Origin: Bolinopsis microptera
Taxonomy: Eukaryota > Ctenophora > Tentaculata > Lobata > Bolinopsidae
Direction of reading: 5' to 3'
Length of the DNA: 64,000 nt
Assembly (NCBI RefSeq): GCF_026151205.1
Contig: NC_087081.1
Coordinates: 11,161,113 to 11,225,112, forward strand
The translations under genes and the position numbers were made by a program. Below are positions 3,806-59,614 of the stretch, piece after piece; position 1 is the first letter of the stretch, and each line of letters starts with the position of its first letter. The notes beneath the pieces were generated by a model, which saw only the letters and a program-made list of their open reading frames with translations, ran no database searches and was not told where the DNA came from.

Positions 3806-6800
3806 ATGCTTCTGTTTGAACCCAAGAACCGTTGGAGACTATCCGAGGATGATAGCCCTGTACGTGCTAAAGCGGACAGCCTGGAGCTTTATCTTAAAGC
3901 TACCCAGGGAATGATCGACCAGAACTTGCTGGCATCATCGCCTCCCTCCAAGTTCAAGGTAATTTTGGGACAAATGGTTTCTAATCGTGACAAAGTCTTG
4001 ACCTTTGAAGTTTGACGTCTACGTAACAATAAGATACAATATGCTGATTTGATGAGAATAATAATAATAATACTTTGGTCCACCCTAACAAGTTAACGAC
4101 CCTATAGTTAGCTATTTAATGGGTGATCCCCTTGTTTAATGTCTCAATAAATGTCTGGCGGCTTATCTGAATAACTTTTAGTAGAGTGCACCTTACCTAC
4201 TCTTACAGGATTGGCAGTGCACCTTGCCTACTCACTACTGTTACAGGATCAACAATATGGTTCAGCCCCTAGGTATCAATAGCAATAGTGTCAGTTAGGA
4301 CGCTCTAACAAGAGCCTTTACTATCCATACCATAGTTCTTGTAAATTGAAACCTTTAAAACTTACAGCATAACCTTTAAATTTGCAACAGCTCGAGGCAT
4401 ATAACTACCGGATGGATTGAATATAAAAGTAGTTTGTTTGAGCGGAAGAATTTTTGTTTGCTAAATATTTCCCGGTATTTATGTGGTTTTTCATCGAGGA
4501 CATACTAAAACAGTTTTGGTAATTGGCTCACGCTCAATTTTGACCAAATGAATCAATCAACAGTTCAAACTAATCACACAACGTAAAAAACGGGGAATGG
4601 TATAAAAACAACATACTTTGTCAGATTTTTACTGCGCTCTAGTAAGATCTATGGCATGGTGTTAGGATTAGGATCTTTGGTGTGATCATTAGGATCATGT
4701 CTTCATCTCCAGCACTGTAATCCGTTTCACTAATTCCTCCACACTCCAGAGACCTATATATCTAAATTTCGAACGATTTTCGATGTTTTTCTCGATTCTA
4801 GACAAAAAATTCACCGTCATTAATTGTTGCACTATAGCCAGTCTAAGACATAAAATATGTTCGTTTTGTTTTGATTCGTTGCAGTATCAAATTTGTTAGT
4901 TGGTGATTAGCAGTTGGCAAAGAGGTTTACGCTTTAATTTGAAGGCTGTTCTGTACCATAATCCTGAAGAATAAGCTTATAATTTTACAATTTTCACCAA
5001 ATCTGTTCCTTTTAAAGATAGACAGTTTTTCCAACACTTCAAGCGGTCTAAGTATAAAGCAGTCTAGTATTTTATAGTAGGTATGTTTTCTCAGGAGTGC
5101 CCACTGGGGTTTTATTATGATTATGATGTAGTTAATAAATTAGTCCATTAGAGACAATCCCCTCACGAGGGGCTTTCAATCAGACAATGCCAGCACCTCT
5201 CCGACGTCAACGAACCAAGGCCACGGTAAGTGATTAGGTTATCACTTAATTGATAATAATTAATAACTTGATTAATAAGTATTAAAATGATTTTTTAATT
5301 GGACTCTACATTTCACTTATCATAGTTAAAATTTCAATCCTCATTTTCGAAATTTTTTACTGTTAAGTGAAACAGCGTAAGTTACTTACCTTAAGTGGCT
5401 CCTACCTTAGCTCCTTAAGTAACTCCTCAAGTAGCTTCTACAAATCTGCCAGAGAAATGATCTGTTCGAAACTCATTGCATTACATACAGCGAAATCTCT
5501 CTTTAGTGAAACTCGAAAATAAACACCGCAAAACAGTTATCTTCAATCTAAACTCGTTCTGTACTTGATTACATTGTCTATTAGTAAGCACTGAGCATCA
5601 TGTACCACTTAGGTGAAGGGCTCACATTTGGGCGTTTCATAGGATGTCACATGGGGTGCAGGCCGCAGGGGTGTGCTAGGGGTGCACTAGGGGCTTAAGG
5701 GTGAACTAGGGGTGCACTAGGGGTGTACTAAGGGTGCACTAGGGGTGTACTAGGGGTGCACTAGGGGATGTACTAGGGTGCACTAGGGGTGCACTAGGGG
5801 TGCACTAGGGGTGCACTAGGGGTGCACTAGGGGAGCATTAGGGGTGTACTAGGGGAGCATTAGGGGTGTACTAGGGGTGTACTAGGGGTGCACTAGGAGT
5901 GCACTAGGGGTGCACTAGGGGTGCACTAAGGGTGCACTAGGGGTGTACTAGGGGTGCACTAGGGGTGTACTAGGGGTGCACTAGGGGTGTACTAGGGGTG
6001 TACTAGGGGTGTACTAGGGGTGCACTAGGGGTGCACTAGGGGTGTACTAGGGGTGTACTAGGGGTGCACTAGGGGATGTACTAGGGGTGCACTAGGGGTG
6101 TACTAGGGGAGCATTAGGGGTGTACTAGGGGAGCATTAGGGGTGTACTAGGGGTGCACTAGGGGTGCACTAGGAGTGAACTAGGGGTGCACTAGGGGTGC
6201 ACTAGAGGTGTACTAGGGGTGCACTAGGGGTGTACTAGGGGTGCACTAGGGGATGTACTAGGGGTGCACTAGGGGTGCACTAGGGGTGCACTAGGGGATG
6301 TACTAGGGGTGCACTAGAGGTGTACTAGGGGTGTACTAGGGATGTACTAGGGGTGCACTAGGGGTGCACTAGGGGTGCACTAGGGGATGTACTAGGGGTG
6401 TACTAGGGGTGCACTAGGGGTGTACTAGGGGTGTACTAGGGGTGTACTAGGGGTGCACTAGGGGTGCACTAGGGGTGCACTAGGGGTGTACTAGGGGTGC
6501 ACTAGGGGATGTACTAGGGGTGCACTAGGGGTGTACTAGGGGTGTACTAGGGGAGCATTAGGGGTGTACTAGGGGTGCACTAGGGGTGCACTAGGAGTGC
6601 ACTAGGGGTGTACTAGGGGTGCACTAAGGGTGCACTAGGGGTGTACTAGGGGTGCACTAGGGGTGTACTAGGGGTGCACTAGGGGTGTACTAGGGGTGTA
6701 CTAGGGGTGTACTAGGGGTGCACTAGGGGTGCACTAGGGGTGTACTAGGGGTGTACTAGGGGTGCACTAGGGGATGTACTAGGGGTGCACTAGGGGTGTA

Positions 6801-7469
6801 CTAGGGGAGCATTAGGGGTGTACTAGGGGAGCATTAGGGGTGTACTAGGGGTGCACTAGGGGTGCACTAGGAGTGAACTAGGGGTGCACTAGGGGTGCAC
6901 TAGAGGTGTACTAGGGGTGCACTAGGGGTGTACTAGGGGTGCACTAGGGGATGTACTAGGGGTGCACTAGGGGTGCACTAGGGGTGCACTAGGGGATGTA
7001 CTAGGGGTGCACTAGAGGTGTACTAGGGGTGTACTAGGGATGTACTAGGGGTGCACTAGGGGTGCACTAGGGGTGCACTAGGGGATGTACTAGGGGTGCA
7101 CTAGAGGTGTACTAGGGGTGTACTAGGGATGTACTAGGGGTGCACTAGGGGTGTACTAGGAGTGTACTAGGGGTGTACTAGGGGTGTACTAGGGGAGCAC
7201 TAGGGGTGTACTAGGGGTGTACTAGGAGTGTACTAGGGGTGCACTAGGGGTGCACTAGAGGTGTACTAGGGGTGTACTAGGGGTGCACTAGGGGTGTACT
7301 AGGGGTGCACTAGGGGTGCACTAGGGGATGTACTAGGGGTGCACTAGGGGATGTACTAGGGGTGCACTAGGGGTGCACTAGGGGTGCACTAGGGGATGTA
7401 CTAGGGGTGCACTAGGAGTACTTGAGAAACATAAGTGCAGACCTGCAGCTTTCGCAGGGCCAACACTAG
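3806..7469 (+). CDS. Tentative three-exon gene for a small basic protein (68 aa)
   Basis: This is an unrecognised gene model. Exon 1 (3806-3958) starts MLLFEPKNRWRLSEDD and ends at a good donor, TTCAAG/gtaatt, in phase 0. Exon 2 (5184-5225) is bounded by tcaatcag/ACA and CCACG/gtaagt and encodes TMPAPLRRQRTKAT, again phase 0. A third acceptor, ttcgcag/GGC at 7458, adds GQH and a stop (7467-7469). The phases agree across all junctions, and exon 1 reads like real protein (DSLELYLKATQGMIDQ). The 1.75-kb minisatellite would lie in intron 2. Exon 1 could instead join exons I did not find, and the tiny terminal exons are weak evidence. No function can be proposed. Confidence 0.35.
5667..7420 (+). 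repeat. Minisatellite, 11-bp unit GGGGTGCACTA, about 1.75 kb
   Basis: Roughly 160 head-to-tail copies of an 11-base unit. The main variants are GGGGTGCACTA and GGGGTGTACTA; a 12-base form (GGGGATGTACTA) and GGGGAGCATTA recur. Rare variants fall in the same order about 698 bases apart: CACTAAGGGTG near 5925 and 6623, GGAGTGAACTA near 6173 and 6871. This shows an internal duplication, a higher-order repeat. The G-rich strand has G-runs separated by 7 bases, so nearly any four consecutive units fit the usual G-quadruplex pattern. Confidence 0.97.
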
Positions 7470-8627: not shown

Positions 8628-10904
8628 TTGACTAGGAAGTCCAAAAACGGTCAGGATTACAGAATTAGAGTCTATTCATTTAAAGACGACACCACCATTG
8701 TTGAAAAACAACTGCGATTTTTCTCGAGAGATACCTGCGACAAGATTCTTAACAGTGCCTCGTCTAAGAATCTCAACAAGTGGATAGATCTTTGTGGCCT
8801 AACCAGTCAGAAAACAAACGAGCGAAGTCAAACTGCAATTAAAGCGTTTTTTAACCTTGTGATTGACAACAAATACAGCACGTACCCGTCAGCACCTCTC
8901 ATAACTAGTCTGGTCGAGAAAATGGCAGTTGATTCGCTAGATCGAGAACTCAAAAGGTTTGAAATAAACTTCAACCCGCAAACTCCTGTTGACAATAAAA
9001 AGAAACTGCTGCGTGACCACGTCAACGCTATTGGGCGCGAAGCTAGAAAGGCAAATCCACCAGATCTCATTAACTCTGAGACTGACTCTGAGTCAATATC
9101 TTCTGAACTCAGCGATGCCTCTAGCAGAAAGGGCTACAAAAGCTGTAACTCGAACAACAGCTCCAGTAACAGTGCACAGGGCAAGACGCAGAATACAGAA
9201 AAGAAAGTAAAGGTCAAAGTTAAGAAGACGAGGAAAGCAAGACAGATCTTAACCCCCGGCAAAATTAAGGTCCCTTGCAGCACTCACGAATCGATAGAAA
9301 ACTCAATACGACTCCTTGAGCAGAACTTACTAGAATTCCAAGAAAAGCTAGCAAACCAAGATTCAGTTCTGTCCTCCTTAGCCAGTCAACTCAACTCCAG
9401 CGCCCCACTAACCAGCTCAAAATCTCTAGCCACGCTGGTCAACAAAAACAAAACAATATTTGACACCCTAAATATTCAGCAAAACTCTATCGACAATATC
9501 ATGGACAGAATGATAGAAGGAGAAAAGGAACGGAAACGTATCCAAGACCAAGCTCACAGAGCAACGGCAGAAAAGGTTTTTCGATCCAAGACCCTTGAAC
9601 TTGAAAAACAGATAGCTGATTCAGCCAAGGAGGTTAACTACTTAAAAAGCGAGCTCGCAAGAATGAAAAACAACGAGCCGAACCAATCCAATGAGATACG
9701 CATAATACAGGCTAGACACAGCGAAGAACTCAGAAAACTCAAATCCGATATCATGGGGATGAAGAGTGTACCCGGAAGTCATTCGAACGGGGTCAATTAT
9801 CCCAACCAATATGATGGAGTTGACGAAAAATGTGCGATCCTAAGTCATTTGGAAAGTTTCAATAGACGCGCTACGAATGAGTTAGGAGACAAGATTCTCC
9901 AAGGACAACGAGAAGGGTTTGAACTTATCAGCCGAGAGATTACAGCGTGTCTCAAAGATCTATCTAAAATCAACACAGCAGGTCAAGAAGGTAACATCCA
10001 GCCTGCTAACAAACCTCGTGCTAATAGTTTTGAACCGGAACACCAAAACGATGCCGCCAACAAAACCCCCGAGGACCCCCTTACAAGACCAAACGACAAA
10101 AAACGCACGGCACCACACAAAGGAAAGAAAGAGAATATGCCGAGTCAAAAGGCTGAAGACCCAGCAACCTTTTTGTCCGAGGGAACCACTAAAAGCACGA
10201 CAACTGCTGGTGCCAATAAACAAAGCAAAAATAACAGTGATGGCACCCCTGTTAACCGTGAAACGTACCGTCGTGACAACTTCAATCCTCAACATTGGCA
10301 CACCCGGAAATGTGTAGTCATTCACGACGCACACTTCAATACCTTCGACGAATCAAGATTCACGAAACGTTTTGATGTCAAGAGGATAGAATATGATACT
10401 GCCGTATCAGCTAGCAGGGACCAAAACTTAGTAAAAAAAGTCTCAGAAATCAACCCTGAAGCCATTTATATCCATCTAGGGCAACTAGATGTTCTGAAGA
10501 ATACGCCAGGAAACACGATACTAGATGGTATGAAGAAAATCTTGGATGACCTAACAAAAGCAACCTCAGCAAAGATATGTGTTTCGCAGATTATTCCACT
10601 CCCCGGCTATCCACAAGGCAGCAGTACCATAAGACAGATAAACTCTGAACTAAGCGAATACGTCAAATCCAAGAATAATGCTAGCCTAGACATAAAAATA
10701 TGCACGCAAAACAATGACAATCTCGGAGGATTCATCCAGCGCAGCGTAGGACCACATGGAGTCTTGTTGGGTCTCGATGAACGAGGGGCTCGGAAATTGT
10801 GGCTTCATCTCCGTGACGGACTATTTAGATCTCTCGACATTGAGCTATCAAGAGGGACTAAAAACTCAATCAAACCTCAACAGAAGAAAAACCATAATGG
10901 ATAG
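8628..10904 (+). CDS. LINE-A ORF1 protein (coiled coil, degenerate esterase-like C-terminus)
   Basis: About 758 residues. A basic linker with KVKVKKTRKARQ lies near residues 194-206. Heptad-like coiled-coil segments occupy about residues 220-260 and 330-370, and a low-complexity polar region about 440-560. The C-terminal 190 residues (from KCVVIHDAHF) have the alternating strand/helix pattern of an SGNH hydrolase, but the usual GDS and GxND blocks are altered (VIHDAHF, HLGQLDVL), so activity is doubtful. ORF1 proteins bind the element RNA as a multimer. The frame is open from 8592 but has no ATG before about residue 98; the position given begins with TTG. Either initiation is at a non-AUG codon, the start has mutated, or the 5' part is missing. 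Confidence 0.85.
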   Translation: MTRKSKNGQDYRIRVYSFKDDTTIVEKQLRFFSRDTCDKILNSASSKNLNKWIDLCGLTSQKTNERSQTAIKAFFNLVIDNKYSTYPSAPLITSLVEKMAVDSLDRELKRFEINFNPQTPVDNKKKLLRDHVNAIGREARKANPPDLINSETDSESISSELSDASSRKGYKSCNSNNSSSNSAQGKTQNTEKKVKVKVKKTRKARQILTPGKIKVPCSTHESIENSIRLLEQNLLEFQEKLANQDSVLSSLASQLNSSAPLTSSKSLATLVNKNKTIFDTLNIQQNSIDNIMDRMIEGEKERKRIQDQAHRATAEKVFRSKTLELEKQIADSAKEVNYLKSELARMKNNEPNQSNEIRIIQARHSEELRKLKSDIMGMKSVPGSHSNGVNYPNQYDGVDEKCAILSHLESFNRRATNELGDKILQGQREGFELISREITACLKDLSKINTAGQEGNIQPANKPRANSFEPEHQNDAANKTPEDPLTRPNDKKRTAPHKGKKENMPSQKAEDPATFLSEGTTKSTTTAGANKQSKNNSDGTPVNRETYRRDNFNPQHWHTRKCVVIHDAHFNTFDESRFTKRFDVKRIEYDTAVSASRDQNLVKKVSEINPEAIYIHLGQLDVLKNTPGNTILDGMKKILDDLTKATSAKICVSQIIPLPGYPQGSSTIRQINSELSEYVKSKNNASLDIKICTQNNDNLGGFIQRSVGPHGVLLGLDERGARKLWLHLRDGLFRSLDIELSRGTKNSIKPQQKKNHNG

Positions 10905-13900
10905 TCCCAAAACAACTGATGTCCTGATCAGATTGCCTTCCCACAACAGGGAGACATTGAAAATCCTTTCGTGGAACATACACGATGCTTCAAACGGGAA
11001 AGAAGGCAGGAAAATTGATGATACTGAATTTGCTGCCATTGTCACTTCTTGTCCCATTTTCTGTCTTCAGGAAACCAAGAGTAAAATATTTGTTCCAGAC
11101 TACAAATGTTTTAATGCTAACAGACCAAACAGTCGCTCAGGAGGACTTTGCATTGGTATCCACAGGTCTATTGCCAAGGATATCAAAGAAATAACATCCA
11201 ATTGTAGTGACATCCAATCAGTAAGGATAAAACTAGGAAGTGAGAGTGATGTCGATGAACTAGTTATCATCAACTTATACGACTCCCCTGAGCACTCTTC
11301 CTACAAGAAGAGATTGAAATCAAGCAAAAGTACATCCGATGACGATGCTTCAACTCTAGACAACTTACTTGACTTCACCATGAATAGTATTCAAAACGGC
11401 AGGAAGGTGATACTAGCAGGTGATTTCAATGCAAGGACCGCAACCTTGAACAACACCATCGAGGAAGATACTGAAGCATTATCTGCTGCAAACCCATTTA
11501 GCCAACGCAGCCACCCTTGTCTCAATGATCGTTCTAGCAAGGACCAGATGGTTAATCCTAGAGGAAAGTTACTCCTTGACTTTCTGGCCTGTGCAAATCT
11601 AACCATCCTAAACGGCAGCGTACTTGGCGATTCCTTAGGGGAATTCACATCGGTCAATTATGGCGGAGCTAGCGTTGTAGACTATGTTGCTGTAGGAGCT
11701 GACATAAAAGCGTTCGTTAAGAGTTTTAGAGTCCTTGATTTGAACAAATTCTCCGATCACAAACCCTCTGTCACAACACTTAGCCTGAGACACAACATAA
11801 CCCTTTCAGAAGAAATACTGCGTGACCTCGAGGACGCGCCCAGGAAGTACAAATGGCCATGTGAGGATAATGCTGAGCTCAAATTCTTGCTAGCTATGGG
11901 TGACCCTAGTATAAAGGAAAAGACGGAAACTCTGGCTACAAGTTCATGCAAAACCCATCAAGACGTTCTTAACCTTAACAACCAAATTGTTGAGCTGTAT
12001 CATCAGGTTGCTGAACAAGTGATGCCCCGAAAAAACGCCACAAGTCGTCAGAAAGGGCCGAGACATAATAAATATGGTAGCACCAAAAAGAAGAGTCGAA
12101 TGAAGCCAAAAATGGCATGGTTTGACAGTGAATGTATCCGTCTTAAGAGGACACTCAACATTCTAGCAAAAAAGTATGGAAGATCCCCATTGGACAAGCT
12201 CCTCAGGGACTCTTATTACGACACTCGGCGACAATATAGAAAGATGATCAGACATAAGCGATCAGAATTCTTTGAGAAGCTTTGCAAGGACATAGAAACA
12301 GGGAACAACATCTGCTGGAAATCCTTCAAAGCTCTTAAAAATACAAAATCGCCTGCAACCAGTCTTGATGCCTTCGATATGATCAACTTTTGCAAGTTCT
12401 TCAGTGAACTTTACGGCAAAAAGAACATCAAAGACTCTAAGATCGCAGAGCTACAGTCAAAGATGCAGAAAAACAACATTTGTGACGACCTGACAAAGCT
12501 TTTGGATCAAGATATAAAGATGGAAGAGCTGTGTGCTTGCATTAAGGCCACTAAAAAAGGAAAGGCAGTTTCCGAAGATCTAATTTCTAATGAATTCTTC
12601 AAAGCCTCAACACGATCCATGCTCAAAGCAGTCCTCAACCTCTTCAACCACTGCCTAAGCCTATCAATTTACCCATGGACTTCATCAGTAGTTACACCAC
12701 TACACAAAAAAGGTGATATCTATGATCCAAACAACTACAGAGCCATCGCTGTAGCGAGCAATCTCGGAAAGCTCTTTGCAAGCATATTGCTGAAAAGATT
12801 GATATCATTCTGTGATCAATGTGATCCTAATACAGCCAACCAACTAGGTTTCTGTAAAGACGCACAGACAGCAGACCACATTTTCACATTATCAACCTGC
12901 GTGGAAAAGTATGTCACCAAGAAACGCCAACGGCTATACACATGCTTTGTCGATTATGCCAAAGCGTTTGATTCCATCTGTCGTGAGGCACTCCTATACA
13001 AGTTGTGGAAAATGGGTATTCAAGGGAGATTCTTTGAGTGCATTAAGTTCATGTACTCAAACTCCTCAGCCAAAGTGAAGCTACTCGGCAAGCTGTCACA
13101 GAAGATCGACATAATATGTGGTACCGAGCAAGGACACCCCATGTCCCCTGAACTGTTTAAATGCTTTGTCCACCAGCTTTCACATGATCTCAACAACATC
13201 GAAGGATTGAAAGTCCCTGTCCTAAATGATACAGATATAACTCATCTGCTATGGGCAGACGACCTTGTCCTTCTAGCCCTCAACAAACACAGTCTTCAAC
13301 AAATGCTTGATGTCCTAAACAATTACTGCTCAGAATGGGGCCTGACAGTAAACGTTGGAAAAACTTCAGTCCTTGTGTTTAACCCAACAGGAAGGCATCT
13401 GAAGGAAAGTCATGAGTTCAAACTGGGAGAACAACAGATCCCCTCCGGGAGAGAGTACTGTTACCTTGGCATTACATTTACTCTGAGCGGATCACTTAAG
13501 CTAACACAACAAAAGCTGAGGCAAAAAGCATTAAGAAGTTATTTCTCTTTGAAAAGCTACATTGATACCCGCCACATCAGGAAATCTATACTGTTCAAGC
13601 TATATGATACACTTATTGTACCTGTGGTGTCGTATGGTTGCCAAGTGTGGCTGCCAAGCACAGCCCTGTTCCGCAACTTCCCCACAAACACGAGCACCAC
13701 ACCAGAAACAGGAAACGTGTGTACACTCATTGCCAGGGACCCTCTAGAGAACTTTCATCTGTCTCTTTTGAAATGGACCTTAGGGGTGAGGAAGTCAACA
13801 TCCAATGCTGCGATATGGGGTGACACAGGCAGGCATCCACTAGGCATCACGCTATCAAAGCAAGTGTTCAACTACAAAGAAAGACTTGAACAAATGGTTG

Positions 13901-14547
13901 TAGACGGTCGTGACTGCTTTGCTAGACACGCTTTCGAAGAGCAGGCGACCCTAAACCTGAGCTGGTTCTCCACTCTCGAGCAGATGCAGGAAACCATCGA
14001 GGCATCAGAGAGAAACCAAGGATTAAGACCAAGCCAGATTAGAAAGAGTTTGCAAAAGTGGTTTATAAACTCATGGGAAACAGAAAGGACATCTAACAGA
14101 AAACTATCATTCTACAACTTAGTGAAGAGAAAGTTTGCTCAAGAGACGTACCTAGCCCTTGATCTTAAACCTAACTGCTCAAAGAAGATCGCGCAATTCA
14201 GAAGCAGCTCCCACCGCTTTAACGTTGAAACTGGTCGCTACGGCAAAAAGCGGTTTAACATAAAACATCGGGCCTGCAGACATTGCTGCTCAAGTGACGA
14301 TGACTTGTTAGATCTTCTCTATGAGCTACCAGGGGCCTATCCAGTGATAGAAGATGAGCATCACATCCTCTACGAATGCCCCCTATACGAAGACCTACGC
14401 AAAAACCTGCATCAACGAACGAGGGACCTGTTAGTTATGAGAGAAGAACCGGGAGAAATCTTCGACGACTCAACATCAATTAGAGACATTGGACGTTTTT
14501 TAAATAAGGTCGATGAACTGAGGTTCCCAAAGAAAAATACTGAATGA
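10897..14547 (+). CDS. LINE-A ORF2 protein: endonuclease / reverse transcriptase (1216 aa)
   Basis: The protein nicks target DNA and reverse-transcribes the element RNA onto it. The N-terminal endonuclease shows ILSWNIHDA, a QETK motif, AGDFNAR and FSDHKP, the expected metal and catalytic blocks. The RT domain shows CFVDYAKAFDSI (motif A), GTEQGHPMSPELF (motif B) and LWADDLVLLA (motif C, W786-A-D-D), followed by WGLTVNVGKTSVLVF. The C-terminus carries CRHC with a downstream EDEHHILYEC, a zinc-ribbon-like CCHC arrangement often found there. I chose the ATG at 10897 because it overlaps the ORF1 stop within ATGGATAG, which suggests stop-start reinitiation. The frame is open further upstream inside ORF1. 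No internal stops or frameshifts are present. Confidence 0.93.
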   Translation: MDSPKTTDVLIRLPSHNRETLKILSWNIHDASNGKEGRKIDDTEFAAIVTSCPIFCLQETKSKIFVPDYKCFNANRPNSRSGGLCIGIHRSIAKDIKEITSNCSDIQSVRIKLGSESDVDELVIINLYDSPEHSSYKKRLKSSKSTSDDDASTLDNLLDFTMNSIQNGRKVILAGDFNARTATLNNTIEEDTEALSAANPFSQRSHPCLNDRSSKDQMVNPRGKLLLDFLACANLTILNGSVLGDSLGEFTSVNYGGASVVDYVAVGADIKAFVKSFRVLDLNKFSDHKPSVTTLSLRHNITLSEEILRDLEDAPRKYKWPCEDNAELKFLLAMGDPSIKEKTETLATSSCKTHQDVLNLNNQIVELYHQVAEQVMPRKNATSRQKGPRHNKYGSTKKKSRMKPKMAWFDSECIRLKRTLNILAKKYGRSPLDKLLRDSYYDTRRQYRKMIRHKRSEFFEKLCKDIETGNNICWKSFKALKNTKSPATSLDAFDMINFCKFFSELYGKKNIKDSKIAELQSKMQKNNICDDLTKLLDQDIKMEELCACIKATKKGKAVSEDLISNEFFKASTRSMLKAVLNLFNHCLSLSIYPWTSSVVTPLHKKGDIYDPNNYRAIAVASNLGKLFASILLKRLISFCDQCDPNTANQLGFCKDAQTADHIFTLSTCVEKYVTKKRQRLYTCFVDYAKAFDSICREALLYKLWKMGIQGRFFECIKFMYSNSSAKVKLLGKLSQKIDIICGTEQGHPMSPELFKCFVHQLSHDLNNIEGLKVPVLNDTDITHLLWADDLVLLALNKHSLQQMLDVLNNYCSEWGLTVNVGKTSVLVFNPTGRHLKESHEFKLGEQQIPSGREYCYLGITFTLSGSLKLTQQKLRQKALRSYFSLKSYIDTRHIRKSILFKLYDTLIVPVVSYGCQVWLPSTALFRNFPTNTSTTPETGNVCTLIARDPLENFHLSLLKWTLGVRKSTSNAAIWGDTGRHPLGITLSKQVFNYKERLEQMVVDGRDCFARHAFEEQATLNLSWFSTLEQMQETIEASERNQGLRPSQIRKSLQKWFINSWETERTSNRKLSFYNLVKRKFAQETYLALDLKPNCSKKIAQFRSSSHRFNVETGRYGKKRFNIKHRACRHCCSSDDDLLDLLYELPGAYPVIEDEHHILYECPLYEDLRKNLHQRTRDLLVMREEPGEIFDDSTSIRDIGRFLNKVDELRFPKKNTE

Positions 14548-50547: not shown

Positions 50548-50655
50548 GTTAGTTCTGATCACATGTTTATTTACCTTTTATGTGATAAACTACATTTTAC
50601 CAGTTTTAATACTTTCAACACTACTATATAACAAATAATTTGAGGTTTGACATGA

Positions 50656-51618
50656 GGAGAAACGACACGAAAACGAAATGTCAAGAAAAGTCCAGAGAAA
50701 ACTGGTGCTACAGCACAAAAGGATGCAACTGAAGATGAAAAAGATCGTAGTTGTGAATGCAGAAGGTATATCGCAGAGGAGTTTTCATTAGCTTGTGCAA
50801 CCTGTGATATGTACTGGCATTATTGCTGTGTTGGACTGACAGGTCTGACACAAGAAGAAGGCGACCATCTGTCTAACTGGCGTTGTCAGAATTGTTTTAT
50901 ATCACCTTACATAAAAAGCAAAAGGACTCAGACCTCGAACCCTGATAATGAAGAAACAAAAATACTACGGAATTTTATTAGGCAGGAACTTGAGGCCCTT
51001 ACACCTTGTATCAGAGGGGTTGTTGAAAACGCAGTGAACGAGAACATTTCAACTAACTTTGAGTCTGAAAAAACTAAAGAAATATCAAATATAGTGAACC
51101 AGGCTTTCCAGTCCTTCGCTGATGTTACTGCAAATAGTCAGAAGAAAGTGATGGAAGAAATGAGCCTACAGCAAGCTTCACAAAGTGTTGTCAGTAAAGT
51201 TCAGACAAAGATGCACACTGATGCATATGAGCGAAATTTAAGGAAGCTCAATCTGTGTGTTTTGAATGTACCAGAGAGCAAGAAAGCTAACTCCAAGCTA
51301 CGCCAGGAAGAGGACTCGAATTTCTGCAAGGAGACATTAAAGATTGAAAAAAGTGACTTTATCAGTTGCCATCGTGCAGGTAAAGTGGATCCAGATAAGC
51401 CAGACTCCTGTCGGCCATTAATCATCCAGACAGCTGACGAGGAGTCAGTTAACTTTTATTCCAACCATGGCAAGGGCTGGAGAGAGTCATCATACTGGAT
51501 AAATCTGGATCTCTGCAGAGCAGACCGAGAGATCCGTTTTTTAGCCAGAGAAGAGAGGAAGAAGAGGCGGGAAGAAGCAGAGAAGAAAAAGACAGAGAAG
51601 AAGGTGGAGAAGAAGTAA
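50656..51618 (+). CDS. LINE-C ORF1 protein with N-terminal PHD finger
   Basis: The frame opens at 50656. A PHD/RING-type zinc finger reads CECRRYIAEEF, CATCD, HYCC, then WRCQNC, so the Cys4-His-Cys3 pattern is complete. A coiled-coil region (about TKEISNIVNQAFQSFADV) follows, then LNLCVLNVPESKK (the RNA-binding-like domain), CHRAGKVDPDKPDSCRPLI, and a strongly basic tail, REERKKRREEAEKKKTEKK. CR1-group ORF1 proteins often carry PHD fingers. No ATG lies at the frame's start; the ATG at 50652 is in another frame, so a base has probably been lost there. Otherwise this ORF is surprisingly intact for an element whose ORF2 is broken. Confidence 0.75.
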   Translation, partial: GETTRKRNVKKSPEKTGATAQKDATEDEKDRSCECRRYIAEEFSLACATCDMYWHYCCVGLTGLTQEEGDHLSNWRCQNCFISPYIKSKRTQTSNPDNEETKILRNFIRQELEALTPCIRGVVENAVNENISTNFESEKTKEISNIVNQAFQSFADVTANSQKKVMEEMSLQQASQSVVSKVQTKMHTDAYERNLRKLNLCVLNVPESKKANSKLRQEEDSNFCKETLKIEKSDFISCHRAGKVDPDKPDSCRPLIIQTADEESVNFYSNHGKGWRESSYWINLDLCRADREIRFLAREERKKRREEAEKKKTEKKVEKK

Positions 51619-51647
51619 ATAGCAGTGACAAAGAATGTAGTCAGCCC

Positions 51648-52588
51648 ATGAATATTTTTTATACTAATGCTAATGGACTATTTAATAAAATTGATGAACT
51701 AACACATGTATTCTATCAGTTTATAAATCCATTCATGTAATCTGCATTACAGAAACTCATTTTAATAGTGATATTTTAGATGCTGAAATTTTTATTGAAG
51801 GTTTTTGTATGTTTAGAAAAGACAGAGATTTTAAAATCGATAACTCCACTAGCAACATAAGTGGAGGTGGAGGTTCTATTATTTATATTTAAAACAGTTG
51901 TAATGCTCCATTAGTGAGCTCATTTTTAAAAGCACCAGACTCTTTAGCTATTAATGTCAATACCTCTGGTGGATTGATTAGTATTTGTTGTATTTATAGG
52001 TCTACTTCTTTGAATTTGGACCAGAACAATATGTTATTATCTTGCATCAAGAACATTATATCTAGTGAAAAGAATGTTTTTGAAACCATTACCATAGGAG
52101 ATTTTAACCTACCTAATGTATCTTGGGAAACTGGTAGTGTAAATAGTGGTATTTCTACTAAGAATCAGGTTTTAATGATTCAACAAAAGTATATTGATAT
52201 ATTTTTTATTGTATTTTGTGCAAAGTGTATGAAAAGTTGGTGAGGGCACATTTACTAACATTTTTAGAAGAATGAATTTCAAAGCATCAGCATGGATTTG
52301 TGAAGGGTTAATCTTGTCTATCTAATCTCTTATATTTTAGACAAAGGTGCTCCTGTCGATCTTTTGTATTTTGATTTTAGTAAGGCTTTTGACACAGTCC
52401 CCCACTTTAGACTTCTATCTAAATTGGAGGGGTTTGGGGTCAAGGGAAAAGTTTTAGATGTTATAAAAAAATTTCTGACAGACAGAACCATGAGGGTTTG
52501 TGTAGAAGGACAATGGTCTGAGGTGAAACACGTGTTATCTGGTGTTCCCCAGGGGTCAGTATTAGGTCCTTTGCTATTTATTCTTTAT
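51648..52588 (+). pseudogene. LINE-C ORF2, 5' part (endonuclease and start of RT), broken
   Basis: Begins MNIFYTNANGLFNKIDEL. The endonuclease blocks ICITETHF, CCIYRSTSLN and IGDFNLPNVSWE are visible across at least one stop and one frameshift. A deletion then joins to GFVKG...LLYFDFSKAFDTVPH (RT motif A) and VLSGVPQGSVLGPLLFILY (motif B). The sequence ends abruptly at 52588, where LINE-B has inserted. Confidence 0.8.
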
Positions 52589-52958
52589 TTTTTAATACTT
52601 TCAACACTACTAATACTTTCAACACTACTATATAACAAATAATTTGAGGACCCCTAGTGGGAATTAACACCTCAATCAAATGTAGCAACCATTACAGGTT
52701 GTATGTCGATGTAAATGGTTGTTGCATGATAGTTTATTTAAAGACATCCTAAAGACTATCAGACATCGTTTTTAAGAGCTGTTAACTCCCATCTATTACC
52801 TATCACCCATCTATCACCTAAAGAATATCAGACACCACTCATTCCCATCTTCTGAATTGCTGCAAAGGTACTGTAATCAACAACTAAATAACTATAAACA
52901 GTAGCATCGGTTTTAGACTCTATCCTGAATTCTTTGCATTATTGTGTTTATTTGAACT

Positions 52959-54569
52959 ATGTCCGGTATCCCAATCAGAAATTACAGCCTTCGTGACAGA
53001 CCTAACAGTGCAAAAGCAAAATGTTCTACCTGTGTATCACTAAGTCTTGAAAACGACAATTTGAGGAGACAAATTGCTCGTCTAACCAAACTTACCCAAG
53101 GCTCAGGCCATGACAAAATTGCGGTTCCATTCTCTTGCGGGGACAATGTTCTTATCTCTGAACATGAATCAGAAACTCAAAACTGTGAAGTTAGCAGTGT
53201 GACTGAACTTAATAGCAACCCATCTCTTGTGAATTCTTCTGATGTTAACAAACAATCTTCAACCAGTGTTAACGTTGTGGGTAAGTCCATCAATCCATAT
53301 CATGATTTGAGTCGAGGTGTATTCAGGTTTGTTGATACTCTCAAGTTGGATATGGAAACACAATACACACAAACGTTTAACAATAGGGCTGTAGCATACT
53401 ATGGGGATTTCCCATATGCCTACAATGGAGGCTTCCATAACACAAGGCCGTTAAATGACAATCCCTTATTAAAGTCTATTTTAGAACGTTTACGCTCACA
53501 GTTCCCAAGTCTGAAATTTAACAGCGCCATGATCACTAAGTATGAAAATGGCAAGCAAGGAATACCATTTCATTCAGATGATGAGAGGTCCATATCACCA
53601 GGCTCCATGATTTCCACCATATCGTTAGGAGCAACAAGAGTCCTCAGTTTTAGGTCTAAAAGCAAAGTCCATGTTGCCAATCTTACTCTCTCCCATGGCG
53701 ACATAATGATTATGACCAGAAAATCTCAGGACAGCTTTGAACACAGCCTTATTCAGGACCATACTGATGACATGAGAATTAGCATTACTCTGCGCCAGAT
53801 TGATGGCAGTGCAACCTTGTCTGCTCCACTCGATACCTCAAGTAAGCCTTTCGTTACTGTAAGAGAAACTGAACCCTCAATCAAAGGGAAATCATCACCC
53901 AACAAAATCACTCATAAGAGCACCGTACCCCCTGCTTCAGTCAAAAGCAAATCCCTTGCTGTGTATGTTAGCTCAAGCATGTTCTCCAAGTTAGATGCTA
54001 CAAAACTATCCTCTGCTCATCAAGAAGCACATGTATTTCACTATCCTGGTGGCATTGCAAACGGTATCAATGAACGCTTCCACTCAGATGAAAGAAAGAG
54101 GTCAATTGATGCAAATAATGTGAAGACCATCGTACTCATGTGTGGAACTAATGATGTGGACTTAATCCTAGAGAGTCCTCGACACATGAGGAATAGATTA
54201 TTGTCACCCGATGAGTTCACAGGAAAAGCAAAGGCCCTTGATATTACCAATCGCTCTATTGATAATCTGATCCAGTCACTTCACTCGTGGGCTCCAGCTG
54301 CAAAAATTAAGATCATAAACATTTTACCAAGAGAAAGTTTTGCTAGAAATAAAGTGATAAATGACATCAATATCTTTTTATCTAAGATTCCTTCCAAATA
54401 CTCGTTTGTTAGCTTTATACCCACAGAGATGAATCGATTTTTGTTTAGTGATAGATCTGGATTTAGGAAATCATCTTGTTTTAGTAGATTTGGGGAAGAC
54501 AATGTGCATCTAAACAGCGATGGTATCTTTAAACTAGCAAAGCACATCAAGTACCATGCTCACCATTGA
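52959..54569 (+). CDS. LINE-B ORF1 protein: AlkB-like dioxygenase plus SGNH hydrolase (536 aa)
   Basis: Starts at an ATG and is uninterrupted. Residues 29-47 form a short coiled coil. Residues about 120-282 are an AlkB-like Fe(II)/2-oxoglutarate dioxygenase: AYYGDFPYAY (145-154), then FNSAMITKYENG (187-198), iron ligands H205-S-D207 in PFHSDDE, ISLGATRVLSFRS (221-233), third ligand H262 in FEHSL, and RISITLR (273-279), the R-x5-R that binds 2-oxoglutarate and substrate. AlkB enzymes oxidatively remove alkyl groups from DNA or RNA bases. Residues about 330-536 resemble an SGNH esterase: a Ser block (VSSSMFSKL, 337-345, lacking the usual GDS), CGTND (395-399) and DNVHLN (514-519). CR1/L2 ORF1 proteins often have an esterase domain; the AlkB domain is the surprise. 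No zinc finger precedes it. Confidence 0.92.
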   Translation: MSGIPIRNYSLRDRPNSAKAKCSTCVSLSLENDNLRRQIARLTKLTQGSGHDKIAVPFSCGDNVLISEHESETQNCEVSSVTELNSNPSLVNSSDVNKQSSTSVNVVGKSINPYHDLSRGVFRFVDTLKLDMETQYTQTFNNRAVAYYGDFPYAYNGGFHNTRPLNDNPLLKSILERLRSQFPSLKFNSAMITKYENGKQGIPFHSDDERSISPGSMISTISLGATRVLSFRSKSKVHVANLTLSHGDIMIMTRKSQDSFEHSLIQDHTDDMRISITLRQIDGSATLSAPLDTSSKPFVTVRETEPSIKGKSSPNKITHKSTVPPASVKSKSLAVYVSSSMFSKLDATKLSSAHQEAHVFHYPGGIANGINERFHSDERKRSIDANNVKTIVLMCGTNDVDLILESPRHMRNRLLSPDEFTGKAKALDITNRSIDNLIQSLHSWAPAAKIKIINILPRESFARNKVINDINIFLSKIPSKYSFVSFIPTEMNRFLFSDRSGFRKSSCFSRFGEDNVHLNSDGIFKLAKHIKYHAHH

Positions 54570-54704: not shown

Positions 54705-57682
54705 ATGACAAATATTCACAACTCAGCTGACAAATTTCATAACCTTTGCATTGGTCACTGTAACATTCAAGGTGGTCTCCTAAATTTAGCTAAAAGTAAT
54801 GAACTTACTCAACTCATTCGAGATCATAAGCTAGACATACTGTCCCTAAATGAGATGAATCTTAATGATACTATTGACACAGACACCATAAATATTCCTT
54901 CCTCCTTCAACATTATGCGATGCGACAGGCCAAACAGTTCTAGGGGTGGTTGTGGCTTAATGATAAACAAAAAACTAGCTTACACAGAATTAGTTATGGA
55001 TAGTAAGCTTGATAACATTGAAGCATTATGGGTGAAGCTTAAGAATAGCAAGATCAATGTTTGCTGCTTCTATCGCTCTGGAAATTATTGCAGTGTTGAT
55101 AACTTTATTGAGTACATTCATTTTTGCATGAAAAAATTGAACGGGAAAAAGGTTATCTGGATTGGGGATATAAACATTGACCAGAATAATATCTCATCCA
55201 CCCAGTACAAAAAATTAGATATGACCTTGAGATGTTACAATCTAGTTCAAACCATTCAAGGGATAACTAGAGTTGCTAAACGTGGAGACAATTTTACCCA
55301 GACTACTATTGATGTAATATTCACTAACTGTTATGCAGATTTTGTTCAATCTTCTGTTCTTGATGAACGTATTGGGGATCATCAAGCTATTATGTGTGAG
55401 ATAGATTGTAAAGTACCTATAGCTCCTAAATTTGAAAAGGTTGAAATTAGAAATCATTGTAAACGTAATGTTAAACAATTCTTAGACTATCTAGATACCT
55501 GTTCTGATTACAGTCCACTATTGGAAAGTACAGATGTTGAAGCTATCACTGCTGGCCTTTGTCATCATATTGAACAGGCATATGCAACCTTCTTCCCTTG
55601 CAAGACCATAGAAAGGCATGAAAAGTTCATACATAAACCTTCTACTGAACTTTTAAATGCCATTAATCATACACATTTTCTTCTAAAGAAATTCCGTAAA
55701 AAGAAGGATAAGAGAGACAATAGAAATTGCAATAAATGTGGTATATGTAGCAAATGTATAAAGTGTAATGAGGCCTGGGATTGCTACAAGATTCAGAGAA
55801 ATATTAGAAATAAATTAGCTAAAACCTGCAAAAAAGCTAATGTAATCGATGATCTACAAGTTAAAAGTGCCAAGAATGATCTTAAAGGGGTATGGAAAAC
55901 TATCAAACTGGCATCAAATATGACCCCTGGTACAACTAATTGTCAAACTATCAATAAGAATGATCCTGAGCTATTTAACTTTCATTTTGCAAATGTTGGA
56001 TCAAGATTACAAAATCAGGCCCCCAATATTGAAAGAGTTAGTTTTACTGATTTTTTACCTCCTAGAACTTCTAACATCTCATTTGATAGATTCCAAGAAA
56101 TAAATGAAACTGATATCCTAATGTATGTCGAAACGCTCAAGAATGACAAGGCCTCATATGACGATGTGCCTCTATTTTTACTTAAGCAAGCTGTACCACA
56201 CATAGTTGAGCCACTGACCCATATTGTCAATTTGAGCCTTAATACAGGTGTTGTACCAACCCTTTGTAAAAAAGCTAGAGTAACTCCCATCCATAAGGCA
56301 GGAATGAAAGATGATCCTAATAATTACAGGCCAATATCCATCCTTCCACTTGTAGGAAAACTTATAGAATACTTTGTCGGCAAGCAACTCACTGATTACA
56401 TGGAAGAGAACAAACTTTTCATCCGGCATCAATATGGCTTTCGGAAAAATCACTCCACAACTTATTTGATGTACGATCTGATGGACGAAATATATATGAG
56501 TAAATCTAAGTCTTATAAACCAGGAATCATCTTTCTTGATCTTAAGAAGGCCTTTGACACAGTGAATCATGAAATATTGCTTCAAAAATTGGCATATTAT
56601 GGAATTGGTGGCATTGCTTTAACCTGGTTTAAGAACTTCTTATCTTGTAGATATCAATGCACTAGGATCAATGGCAAACTAAGTTCATTTTTAGAAGTTC
56701 TGAGTGGTGTACCACAAGGAAGCATCATTGGGCCTATATTATTTAGTATCTTCATAAATGACATCATTTATGCCTGTAACCTATCTAAGCCCTTTCTATT
56801 TGCAGATGATGGTGCACTATTCTTTGATCAAACCTGCAGAAGCACATTTATAAACATGAAAATAGAACTTATGACAATCTTTAAATGGCTCAGTGTAAAT
56901 AAATTATCACTCAATGAAAAGAAGACTGAATTCCTATTGTTTGATTCTGTTGATCAACATGATGAATTAACCATTGAATGTAATGAGGTAACTTTCACAA
57001 TCAAGGAGTGCAAAGAGACAAAATATCTTGGCCTCATTCTAGATAGTAAATTAAACTTCAAAAGCCATGTAGATTATATTATTAAGAAGGTCATGAAGAG
57101 AATTGGTGCCATGTATAGAAGTAAAGCACTGCTACCCATTAAATATAGGAAAATGTTTGCCAATGCACTCATGTTGCCACAATTCGATTATTTAGACACA
57201 ATCTATTGTAGAGCTGGCAAGACAAAACTTGCTGAACTTGACACTCTGTACAAAAAGGTAGCCAAAATAGCTCTCAACGTTCCACAAACAGAGAGCAGCC
57301 TTAATGTTTATAGAGACATGAAATTTGGTTACCACTCCATCTTAGACGACAACTCCATCTGTCAAATTATATGTTTAGAATCATCCATGACAATTGTCCT
57401 ACAAACTTTATGAACAAATTTAGTTACATATCAGGAGGTAGTAGGAGCGGCGAAAGCTGCAACCTATATGTTAATAGATCAACATCACATAAAAACTTTC
57501 AATACTTGGGGGCAAAATGTTGGAATAATGTTCCAACAGATCTACGAAATCTGCCCGATGTTAAAAGCTTTAGTGATTCGTATAAGAAACAGCTACTCTC
57601 ATCTATAACAACAGACCCTAATTATACCGTCGACAATTCATATGACAAATTTTACACTGCAATCATAGTCGACGATAACTAA
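54705..57682 (+). CDS. LINE-B ORF2 protein: endonuclease / reverse transcriptase, one frameshift
   Basis: The first 902 codons run to 57413. The endonuclease shows IGHCNIQGG, LNEMNLND, WIGDINID, TTIDVIFTN and IGDHQAI. A Cys cluster (C342, 345, 348, 351, 354, 360) lies between the two enzymes. The RT shows NNYRPISILPLVGKLIE, QYGFRKNHST, FLDLKKAFDTVNH (motif A), VLSGVPQGSIIGPILFS (motif B) and FLFADDGALF (motif C, F699-ADD). Near 57371 the frame shifts by one base; the shifted frame carries the expected C-terminus (GAKCWNNVPTDLRNLPDVKS) to a stop at 57682. One lost base explains this. The copy is therefore nearly, but not fully, intact. Confidence 0.92.
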
Positions 57683-58593
57683 GTATCTTCTAATTCTTTT
57701 AAATCTGAGGCATATATAATTGATGTATCGAAAGGATTTTCCCTTTTTTACCACCTTACCATTTTGATTGATTTTGCACATGACTGACATGTTTTAACCG
57801 GAGAAAGGGTTCGCACAGTGGTAGTTTTATAAACCACTTTTAATTTATTGACCTATTATAATACCTAGTGGTAGTTTTATAGACCACATTTAATTTATTT
57901 ACTTATTATACTTAGTATTTATTTTTGGTGACTGTATCACCCAGTTTTAACATTTGATAATTGTACAGTTTATTGACGACACATTGACTGAATGTTATTT
58001 TATATTCTAATTTATATTCTAGATATTTTATTTATTTTTCAACAGACGACAACTTCCTGTTTTTTCTTCTATATTAGTTACTCATATCTCTTTTACAGAC
58101 TTTTTTACAAGGACATTGACAGATGATACTCACATTAGGCATTCATTATTGCATCTAAATTATTTCACTTGCATTAGGTTTAGAAATTTATTCTCTGGTT
58201 AACAGATTTCAAATGTTTAATTAATTTGTAGTATGACAGTAAGGTATATAAGAAGTTATTTAATTTTGCTTGGGCTATTATATTGACTATTGAGGTTTAA
58301 TGATGATATGGAATTTGAATTCTATATAAATTTACACTATGTGGTTGGGGCATTTTGCATAGTAAATATGGTTACTACTCCTATATATCATATTATTTGA
58401 TTGGTATTCGATTTCTGATTATTTCTCTAGGAATATGATTATTATATCTCAATTTGGCTTTAGGTAGGGTGCCCCGCTAAAAGAACTGGATTCTTCCAGG
58501 AAGCATCCCGTGCACAGACCTTGGTCTACATATATATTAAATTATTAACCATTCATTCTGTATGTGCACGAAAATTTATTTCAATCAATCAAT
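57683..58593 (+). other. LINE-B 3' untranslated region
   Basis: Non-coding. A block with GTGGTAGTTTTATA, ACCACTTTTAATTTATT and TATTATA is duplicated in tandem at about 57819-57915. The region ends in the TCAA tail at 58581-58593. Confidence 0.7.
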
Positions 58594-59614
58594 ATAAACG
58601 ATTAACCTGACATTGTTAAAAATAAGATTAAATTATTTGCAGATGATCTCAAGTTAGTTTTTAATGCAGCTAACCATGGAAGTGTATCTGATGATATTTT
58701 AGAACTCGAAATTTGGGAGAGTATTTGGCACTTAAACTTCAATCCTGCCAAGTGTAAAGTAGTTCATATTAATCTGAATAATAATCCTAACTTAAACTAT
58801 ATTGTAAATGGAGTAGAACTAGAAGTATCTGCACAGCAAAAAGATTTAGGGGTTATTACCCATATAATAGCTCCTTGCTTTGGAATGAACAGATAAAAGC
58901 ATGTATTTCTAAAGCAAATCGTATGATCTGCTGGATTGTAAGGAATTTAGTTATTAGAGAACAGGTTGTAATGATAGCTATTTATAAAGCTTTGATAAGA
59001 CCTCATCTTGAGTATTGTGTCCAATTGTGGAATCCATTTGCGGCTCATGGAAGTTGGGGGACTATTTTGGAGCTGGAGAGCGTCCAGAGGTGGTTTACCC
59101 GTCTTATTGATGAGGTGGGTACTCTTCCATACAGCCGTAGACTGGATATCCTCAATTTGACAACACTGGCAGAGGGGCGAATACGTGGGGACCTTATTGA
59201 AGCTTTTAAAGTAACTAGTGGTTTGACTGAACATGGATCGGGTTTGTTCAGAATGAGCAGATCTGGTCTTAATCTTGTTTCAACCAATAGATGTAGTAAA
59301 AGTGTAACTAAAGTGAAGAATCTCCAGTCTTCTTTTCTTCCGGAGCGAGTCATTCCTTATTGGAACAAACTCCCTTCAGATGTCAAGAACTGCTCGACAG
59401 TTTTAAAGTTAGATTGGAAGGATTTAAGAAAGAAATGATTTCTAAAAACAGTGTAAATGATTTTTATTTTTGGAATGTTTCAAATGAAGTTTTAGGGAAA
59501 ATTGAAGGACCCAGTTATTTAAGCAATAAGGAGAGACATAATGAATATCTTTGGTTTCATCCTTTTGTGGCAAAGAAGCGTTTTGTAAATCTTTATTCCA
59601 CTGGGAAGTTTTAA
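58594..59614 (+). pseudogene. LINE-C ORF2, 3' part (RT motif C to C-terminus), broken
   Basis: Resumes IND(stop)PDIVKNKIKLFADDLKLV, the motif C region, and continues WHLNFNPAKCKVVHI and QKDLGVIT. After a frameshift near 58860 it reads IRPHLEYCVQLWNP, LESVQRWFTRLI and VIPYWNKLPSDVKNCSTV. A second frameshift near 59400 leads to KVRLEGFKKEM...FVNLYSTGKF-stop. The order exactly completes the fragment that ends at 52588. Confidence 0.85.

Follow-up and report, generated by a model that had tools for sequence, protein, structure and literature searches.

The LINE and its ORF1 protein

The window, a stretch of 64,000 nt from Bolinopsis microptera (NC_087081.1, positions 11,161,113 to 11,225,112), contains a long interspersed nuclear element (LINE) whose first open reading frame (ORF), ORF1, is predicted to join an AlkB-like 2-oxoglutarate (2OG)-Fe(II) oxygenase to an SGNH hydrolase in one protein. 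The element belongs to a family designated here as family A, which is about 6.0 kb long and is composed of a leader, a 5' untranslated region (UTR) of 310 nt, ORF1, a spacer of 135 nt, ORF2 and a 3' UTR. Its best-preserved copies can be matched to window positions about 52600 to 58589-58593; ATCA-type units form their end there, with unrelated flank beyond. The features of the element, in window coordinates, are as follows.

52590..52648, + strand: host spliced leader 1 (SL1) at the LINE 5' end, its first 18 nt present twice (52593-52610 and 52611-52628); identical to the leader of the tandem spliced leader (SL) RNA genes and present at the 5' end of copies of several families
52649..52958, + strand: 5' UTR; other copies have different leaders joined exactly at 52648/52649, the first trans-splice junction, or after a second acceptor AG that ends at 52697
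52959..54569, + strand: ORF1, 536 amino acids (aa); Cys-containing, leucine-zipper-like N-terminus, then AlkB, then SGNH hydrolase (from the frame, profiles and alignments)
53016..53100, + strand: N-terminal CxxC and heptad-like stretch of ORF1, read by eye and likened to the zinc-finger/leucine-zipper region of type IV esterase ORF1s (PMC4120745)
53412..53795, + strand: AlkB domain, residues 152-279; Fe ligands H205, D207 and H262, with R273 and R279 (from profiles and alignment)
53949..54566, + strand: SGNH hydrolase domain, residues 331-536; Ser340, Gly396-x-Asn398 and His517 do not vary in the alignment of the family, and Asp514 belongs to DNVH
54705..57413, + strand: ORF2, with an AP-type endonuclease (about 54759-55325) and a reverse transcriptase (about 56295-57038); most other copies have a longer ORF2
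58555..58593, + strand: LINE 3' end, ATCA-type units without poly(A); copies diverge right after it

The initial annotation had described an uninterrupted 536-codon ORF with an AlkB signature, and the five residues H205, D207, H262, R273 and R279 are exact to the residue. The Pfam model PF13532 matches residues 152-279 (E = 4.2e-18, 66.7 bits) above its curated cut-off of 31.2, and the nearest PDB chains found by phmmer are ALKBH3 (1.3e-13) and ALKBH2 (1.6e-12). A profile of the AlkB family gave 41 PDB matches at E<=0.01, in which ALKBH3 (5.8e-31) and ALKBH2 (1.5e-25) are far ahead of ALKBH8 (2.7e-12), E. coli AlkB (2e-11), chains named DNA N6-methyl adenine demethylase (6.5e-6) and ALKBH7 (about 0.01); none of the 41 bears the name ALKBH5 or FTO.

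An alignment of 15 mobile-element and three probable host domains, whose rows were excised using a motif that contains the residues in question, has 13 invariant columns, including the three iron ligands, both arginines and the Glu of HxDDE, a motif common to the mobile-element AlkBs and ALKBH2/ALKBH3. Independently of that excision, the HxD...H...R...R motif, i.e., the iron and 2OG ligands, is kept in an open frame at all 46 loci gathered by protein or hidden Markov model similarity with the motif unused (eight of them duplicate places elsewhere in the set and three are the probable host genes). The stretch FNSAMITKYENG begins at ORF1 residue 187. Identity to the window's AlkB domain is 84% in family B and 20-39% across the other families, with the iron and 2OG ligands invariant throughout. 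By these profiles and alignments, the domain is of the ALKBH2/ALKBH3 type and has all the predicted catalytic residues; the two repair enzymes are its closest solved relatives, with the same ligands and HxDDE.

The SGNH-like domain that the initial annotation had placed after the AlkB is weak by Pfam alone, since PF13472 on the window's ORF1 gives E = 0.017 and 16.1 bits, under the cut-off of 32.9. It is supported by a family profile of 10 sequences (without family G), which matches known SGNH hydrolases such as 2hsj (6e-15) and 4c1b (3.7e-8), the latter being the ORF1 esterase of the non-long-terminal-repeat retrotransposon ZfL2-1. The Ser, Gly-x-Asn and His columns are invariant in this 10-sequence alignment (family G lies outside it). 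Pfam matches to SGNH models are clearer in families C (8e-6), D (2e-5) and I (3e-5) and weaker in B (9e-4), F (1e-3), J (4e-3) and H (PF00657, 1e-2), and only the Helitron-type sequence L031, described below, exceeds the cut-off (34.0 bits). The fusion of AlkB and SGNH in one LINE ORF1 is thus supported by profiles, active-site conservation and many copies.

ORF1 lies directly upstream of an endonuclease-reverse transcriptase (EN-RT) ORF2, as had also been stated, with Pfam matches to RVT_1 (9.9e-36) and Exo_endo_phos (1.8e-7) in ORF2. The succession of an esterase ORF1 and an EN-RT ORF2 is the arrangement of LINEs with a type IV ORF1. The short ATCA-type 3' repeat presumably fits the CR1/L2 group. 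Among 85 genomic matches to ORF1, 16 (window included) span residues 1-536 at 97-100% identity and constitute family A, while another 21, with an identity of about 66%, start at residue 1 or 5, reach residue 536 and constitute family B (551 aa); all are stop-free. The earlier wording of a recent, nearly intact element is fair, with the qualification that the ORF2 frame has 912 codons from stop to stop in the window and 996-1006 in 40 of the 50 matches scored. The window element is a LINE of the esterase-ORF1 kind that has been active recently. Its 3' UTR also contains a near-duplicate 44-bp repeat (57817-57910) with a start-to-start distance of 50 bp.

Spread, selection and kinship of the AlkB domain

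The genome search with PF13532, in which the best 150 of 587 candidates were scored, listed 151 matches, nearly all at E<1e-15, and five more searches with AlkB domains of other families gave at least 150 matches each. After merging of the lists by hand and exclusion of three probable host ALKBH genes, at least about 370 distinct AlkB-encoding places were counted. By eye, frame length and identity divide these places into about 30 classes, of which ten were read as a sample (A, B, C646, D611, E707, F593, G777, H692, I676 and J599). AlkB precedes SGNH in one ORF in all ten, and a LINE ORF2 or the start of its endonuclease stands behind this ORF1 in nine; in class J, only a PHD-like start was seen in the 631 nt beyond ORF1. 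Weak PHD matches occur ahead of AlkB in E, H and I. The endonucleases of the main LINE groups are only 16-27% identical to each other, which argues that the AlkB-SGNH arrangement is old.

The domain pair is also found outside LINEs. In L030 (C10:16871843-16881842), one open frame of at least 2487 aa holds SGNH (9e-6), AlkB (5.3e-21), DUF6570 and Helitron_like_N (PF14214, 3.7e-22), with SGNH before AlkB; the locus is called Helitron-type from the Helitron_like_N domain in the frame, seen at this locus only. L031 similarly has SGNH (5e-8) and then AlkB (2e-22), and L037 has AlkB in the stretch examined. The Helitron-type AlkB is present at at least 11 places, of which these three were read. Pro/Ala-rich spacers of variable length separate SGNH from AlkB in the Helitron-type frames (L030, L031 and L037).

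Nei-Gojobori estimates of the ratio of nonsynonymous to synonymous substitution rates (dN/dS) between families A and B are 0.109 for AlkB, 0.057 for SGNH, where synonymous sites are near saturation, and 0.49 for the linker, the N-terminus being not computable. Between C (L029) and D (L033), the values are 0.122 for AlkB and 0.154 for the N-terminus, with SGNH not computable, and between D611 and its close relative D613, they are 0.233 for AlkB, 0.248 for SGNH and 0.517 for the N-terminus. Two Helitron-type pairs gave 0.158 and 0.206 for AlkB. The AlkB domain is under purifying selection, with dN/dS of 0.11-0.23. The AlkB profile match, the other copies with both domains, the kept iron ligands and the AlkB dN/dS of about 0.11 between A and B all agree with the initial annotation, which had looked to them as checks. 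Copy number and dN/dS rule out chance, artefact or a single-copy fusion, and the view that the domain is a passenger, from a chance or recent one-off fusion without a role, is scarcely credible given the approximately 370 places, the 30 or so classes told apart by eye, the purifying selection and the intact frames; nothing was found in its favor.

Between families A and B, the synonymous divergence (dS) of ORF2 is 0.009 over codons 101-500, whereas that of ORF1 is about 1 in AlkB; the first 100 codons of ORF2 have a dS of 0.345, which puts the break slightly within ORF2. Identity computed segment by segment along A and B has the same step between ORF1 and ORF2. Similarly, C and D are 98% identical at the DNA level in ORF2 and about 70% in ORF1, and both partners of either pair carry AlkB-SGNH. 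Near-identical ORF2s with diverged ORF1s indicate that whole ORF1s are exchanged between LINEs that share a near-identical ORF2. Modular exchange of ORF1 is known for CR1/L2 LINEs (PMC4120745).

In a tree of 29 AlkB rows, nine LINE families, represented by 10 rows, group with the three Helitron-type rows at a support of 100/100, apart from the host ALKBH2 (L036, which matches human ALKBH2 at 4e-60) and from other host, human, bacterial and phage AlkBs. The mobile-element AlkBs thus stand apart from ALKBH2/ALKBH3 as well, except for family G, which falls among the host, human, bacterial and phage AlkBs in the free tree with an unsure placement. This separation indicates that the mobile AlkBs did not arise by recent copying of these host genes. 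A tree that unites all mobile AlkBs was not rejected (p-AU of the approximately unbiased test 0.566) and scored 2.3 log units higher than the free tree. Two separate captures, with G apart, are suggested by the free tree and are unsupported, since the tree with all mobile AlkBs together scores slightly higher; a single capture of AlkB by mobile elements is possible.

Judged by their common group, the LINE and Helitron-type AlkBs are relatives. The Helitron AlkB is nested among PHD-type LINEs in the free tree (95/90), and a tree with the LINEs (without G) as one group that excludes the Helitrons was not rejected either (p-AU 0.47). The grouping of the LINE AlkBs matches the endonuclease tree where both are resolved, while the SGNH tree, in which the family-G segment began after the catalytic Ser, is too weak to speak on a joint acquisition of both domains by Helitrons. 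As for a viral source, one pattern scan of viral contigs gave no relative. AlkB-like places occur in 18 phage records with the host AlkB L044 as query and in 17 with the window's AlkB, and in 84 plasmid records with L044, all below 60% identity.

Spliced leaders at the LINE 5' ends

A common leader of about 41 nt opens copies of families A, C, D, E and G and also the LINE into which the window's family-A element is inserted; none was found in 1.3 kb upstream of F, nor in the short upstream stretch examined for H, I and J. The 39-nt core of SL1 has 896 exact occurrences in the genome and its reversed control has none. A GT follows 194 SL1 copies, and among the matches listed, 34 of these lie in a tandem array on C3 with units of 590-592 bp and seven in an array on C5 with units of about 857 bp. 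The SL1 repeat unit (L047) has the make-up of an SL RNA gene, with the leader, a GTAAG donor and, by eye, two stem-loops around CATCTTTTGGT. SmY is a nematode RNA linked to trans-splicing, and its Rfam model matches L047 and L048 below threshold (26 and 23 bits against 39).

Fourteen family-A copies are joined to a leader at 52648/52649: nine to SL1 (window included, one of the nine with a single change), one to an SL1 variant, three to SL2 and one to SL3. Each further leader has an array of its own, with 71 of 94 SL2+GT matches in a 434-bp array on C1 and 20 of 30 SL3+GT matches in a 428-bp array on C5; these two arrays are known from leader+GT matches only, whereas the SL1 units on C3 and C5 were read. 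The bodies of SL1 and SL2 copies differ by as little as 1.6 per 1000. Two copies, L016 of family A and L024 of family B, have the leader joined at the second AG (window 52697). Among the 15 family-A copies examined, L022 is rearranged and has no leader, and the other three of the four family-B copies have SL2 at the first junction (L026), a partial SL2 (L027) or none (L025).

Since near-identical bodies carry different leaders at a single junction and each leader is also arrayed with a GT donor, host leaders are evidently trans-spliced onto the LINE RNA before retrotransposition, and the spliced RNA would serve as template. With such a template, the leader would be renewed in each cycle. A leader that is a DNA-encoded, conserved 5' promoter was rejected, as near-identical bodies carry three leaders at one junction and each leader has its own tandem array. 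In dinoflagellate retrogenes with leader remnants, a leader was likewise returned to the genome by reverse transcription (PMC12014239), and in Hydra, a spliced leader is likewise found on transcripts of transposable elements (PMC12220107). The present case differs from both in that LINE families carry the leader and one family has three host leaders at one junction. Among the papers listed from the open PMC literature, judged by title and start of abstract, none reports a LINE family with swapped spliced leaders. The window's leader resembles the one published for the ctenophore Hormiphora californensis, GAGTTTCAAACTTTTCAACACTACTTTAAACAAATTAATTTGAG. The authors of the Hormiphora study found 718 leaders in the genome of that species and 491 in that of M. 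leidyi; some of these may be LINE 5' ends.

Among the 73 exact SL1 sites on C1, at least six are followed within 3.5 kb by an AlkB place in the same orientation. Eight other sites on C1, chosen for having no listed AlkB place nearby, include two LINEs without AlkB (L053 and L055, with a PHD-type ORF1) and four sites without a long frame. L052 and L056 were considered as AlkB carriers and left uncounted, being AlkB-like by eye without a Pfam AlkB match, and L056 is cut by the end of the stretch.

Five head-to-head pairs of exact SL1 cores, 4-15 bp apart, were also observed on C1 (10 of the 73 exact sites), at 7307505-7307590, 15606568-15606660, 16284611-16284695, 18035177-18035264 and 23931773-23931854. 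In the two pairs that were read (L066 and L067), a single short SL-tagged sequence, truncated to different lengths, makes up both arms, and the arms look as if one RNA species was copied from both strands of one target.

The LINE interrupted by the family-A insertion has the following parts, with boundaries by eye. Pfam has no match in its ORF1 piece but gives a weak PHD match in L055, a related copy.

50604..52589, + strand: 5' part of the interrupted LINE, with SL1 as its leader (50604-50644) and a PHD-like ORF1 (50809-51618) that lacks AlkB
58594..59440, + strand: continuation of the interrupted LINE (reverse transcriptase region)

Precedents and possible roles of the AlkB domain

Type IV (esterase) ORF1s of CR1/L2 LINEs such as ZfL2-1 likewise place an SGNH esterase upstream of an EN-RT ORF2 (PMC3905857; PMC4120745). 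They likewise have an N-terminal zinc-finger/leucine-zipper-like or PHD region and move between lineages (PMC4120745). Unlike them, the window's ORF1 has an AlkB oxygenase between the N-terminus and the esterase. Metcalf and Casane described five types of ORF1, and the words 'alkb' and 'oxygenase' are absent from their paper (PMC4120745). Texim genes near fish Helitrons are likewise SGNH hydrolases tied to Helitrons and related to CR1 esterases; they differ in being separate, intron-bearing genes, with AlkB unmentioned (PMC4021074), whereas L030 has SGNH, AlkB and Helitron_like_N in one frame.

The nearest precedents for an element-borne AlkB are a Ty3/Gypsy family of the orchid Phalaenopsis (PMC9289625) and plant RNA viruses (PMC544882). 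The orchid element also captured a 2OG oxygenase of the AlkB family with intact cofactor residues, and differs in being a long terminal repeat (LTR) element with a separate ORF for an ALKBH5-like demethylase of N6-methyladenosine (m6A) (PMC9289625). The ctenophore AlkB, on the other hand, is ALKBH2/3-like, joined to SGNH, and present in LINE ORF1s of many families and in a Helitron-type frame. The plant viruses are likewise parasites with an RNA genome and an AlkB, carried in a viral protein rather than a LINE ORF1 (PMC544882). None of the papers listed from the open PMC literature, judged by title and start of abstract, describes an AlkB of a LINE or a Helitron; Repbase, Dfam, bioRxiv and most subscription journals were outside this scope.

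The preferred role, which we hold to be somewhat better than an even chance, is that the AlkB of the ORF1 protein clears methyl groups on the Watson-Crick face of the element's RNA or cDNA and so keeps the template readable. In this mechanism, the ORF1 protein would coat the trans-spliced LINE RNA in a ribonucleoprotein particle (RNP), the SGNH part would help in the assembly or localization of the RNP, as proposed for ZfL2-1, and AlkB, in cis on the RNP, would oxidatively remove the methyl groups of 1-methyladenosine (m1A) and 3-methylcytidine (m3C), whether from damage or applied by the host. Such groups would otherwise stop the reverse transcriptase on the 6-kb template or block second-strand synthesis. 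ALKBH2/3-type chemistry is suggested because the profile ranks ALKBH3 and ALKBH2 first, HxDDE is shared, and m1A and m3C stop reverse transcriptases. Activity of related enzymes on RNA has precedents, since the orchid AlkB demethylates RNA in vitro (PMC9289625) and methylated RNA phage is reactivated by hABH3 and AlkB (PMC544882).

Several observations weigh against this role or against a catalytic role of both halves. The substrate is read solely from similarity to ALKBH2/3, and the weaker profile matches include the N6-methyladenine demethylases (6.5e-6) mentioned above. No GDSL domain was found by Pfam in families E and G, and the Asp of the SGNH DxxH, present in the window's ORF1, is missing in F and J, which indicates that the esterase half is not under uniform catalytic constraint. 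Furthermore, LINEs without AlkB exist in the same genome and the same window, indicating that AlkB is not needed for LINE retrotransposition in this host. The window's third LINE is one of them: it has no AlkB and no leader in the 1.2 kb upstream of it, and it is related to G777 in its endonuclease (36% identity, 5e-23) and SGNH-like C-terminus (4e-11).

8628..14547, + strand: the window's third LINE; its ORF1 (758 aa) has an OSK/SGNH-like C-terminus and no AlkB, and its ORF2 has 1263 aa

Counter-defense is the main rival. It holds that host base methylation (m6A, m1A, N6-methyldeoxyadenosine (6mA) or similar) marks transposon RNA or DNA and that the ORF1 AlkB erases the mark, in an arms race rather than in repair. 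The occurrence of the domain in many ORF classes and in a Helitron-type element that needs no reverse transcription suggests a benefit beyond reverse transcription, and the Helitron-type relatives weigh somewhat for this rival, as does the exchange of AlkB-bearing ORF1s between elements; the orchid Gypsy authors proposed the same for their AlkB (PMC9289625). However, a host mark of this kind is not evidenced in this analysis, the domain is ALKBH2/3-like and not ALKBH5-like, and its low dN/dS (0.11-0.23) gives no hint of positive selection at this resolution. We consider counter-defense unlikely, though well ahead of the readings that follow.

Another proposal is that AlkB acts on protein or serves mainly as an RNA- or DNA-binding module of the ORF1 protein, its catalysis being incidental. 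In the ZfL2-1 study, the esterase showed no binding to oligo-(A) RNA, and the way in which ORF1 proteins of this kind hold RNA was only speculated on (PMC3905857); a nucleic-acid-binding fold could fill this gap. Pure binding, however, would not require the iron and 2OG ligands that are invariant among AlkBs of such low identity to the window's domain, and this proposal is improbable. Marginally less probable still is an m6A eraser like the orchid Ty3/Gypsy AlkB, which would alter the stability or translation of element or host mRNA. It has a functional precedent in an LTR retrotransposon (PMC9289625) and the DNA N6-methyl adenine demethylase chains among its weaker matches, but ALKBH3 and ALKBH2 are nearest, HxDDE is as in those two enzymes, and ALKBH5 and FTO are unnamed among the 41 matches.

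Taken with the leaders, the preferred repair role can be extended, at a confidence short of even, to a wider picture. A shared mobile AlkB-SGNH cassette, in LINE ORF1s and in reverse order in Helitrons, may be an RNP-borne eraser of Watson-Crick-face methylation, whose LINEs, without a fixed 5' end of their own, would be trans-spliced in each round to an available host leader and would thereby keep an mRNA-like 5' end and a readable template.

An ORF1 with a nucleic-acid demethylase domain would give the poorly understood LINE ORF1 proteins a concrete, assayable activity and could link base methylation to retrotransposition in an animal of one of the earliest branches. The retention of AlkB across many ORF1 classes and its kinship with the Helitron-type AlkB suggest that the module is under strong selection and has moved from one class of element to another. 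The leaders, from which trans-splicing of LINE RNA before reverse transcription is read in genomic sequence alone, bear on LINE transcription and the evolution of 5' ends.

Elsewhere in the window, an array of the 11-bp repeat AGGGGTGCACT occupies positions 5667-7416, constituting 158 copies over 1.75 kb.

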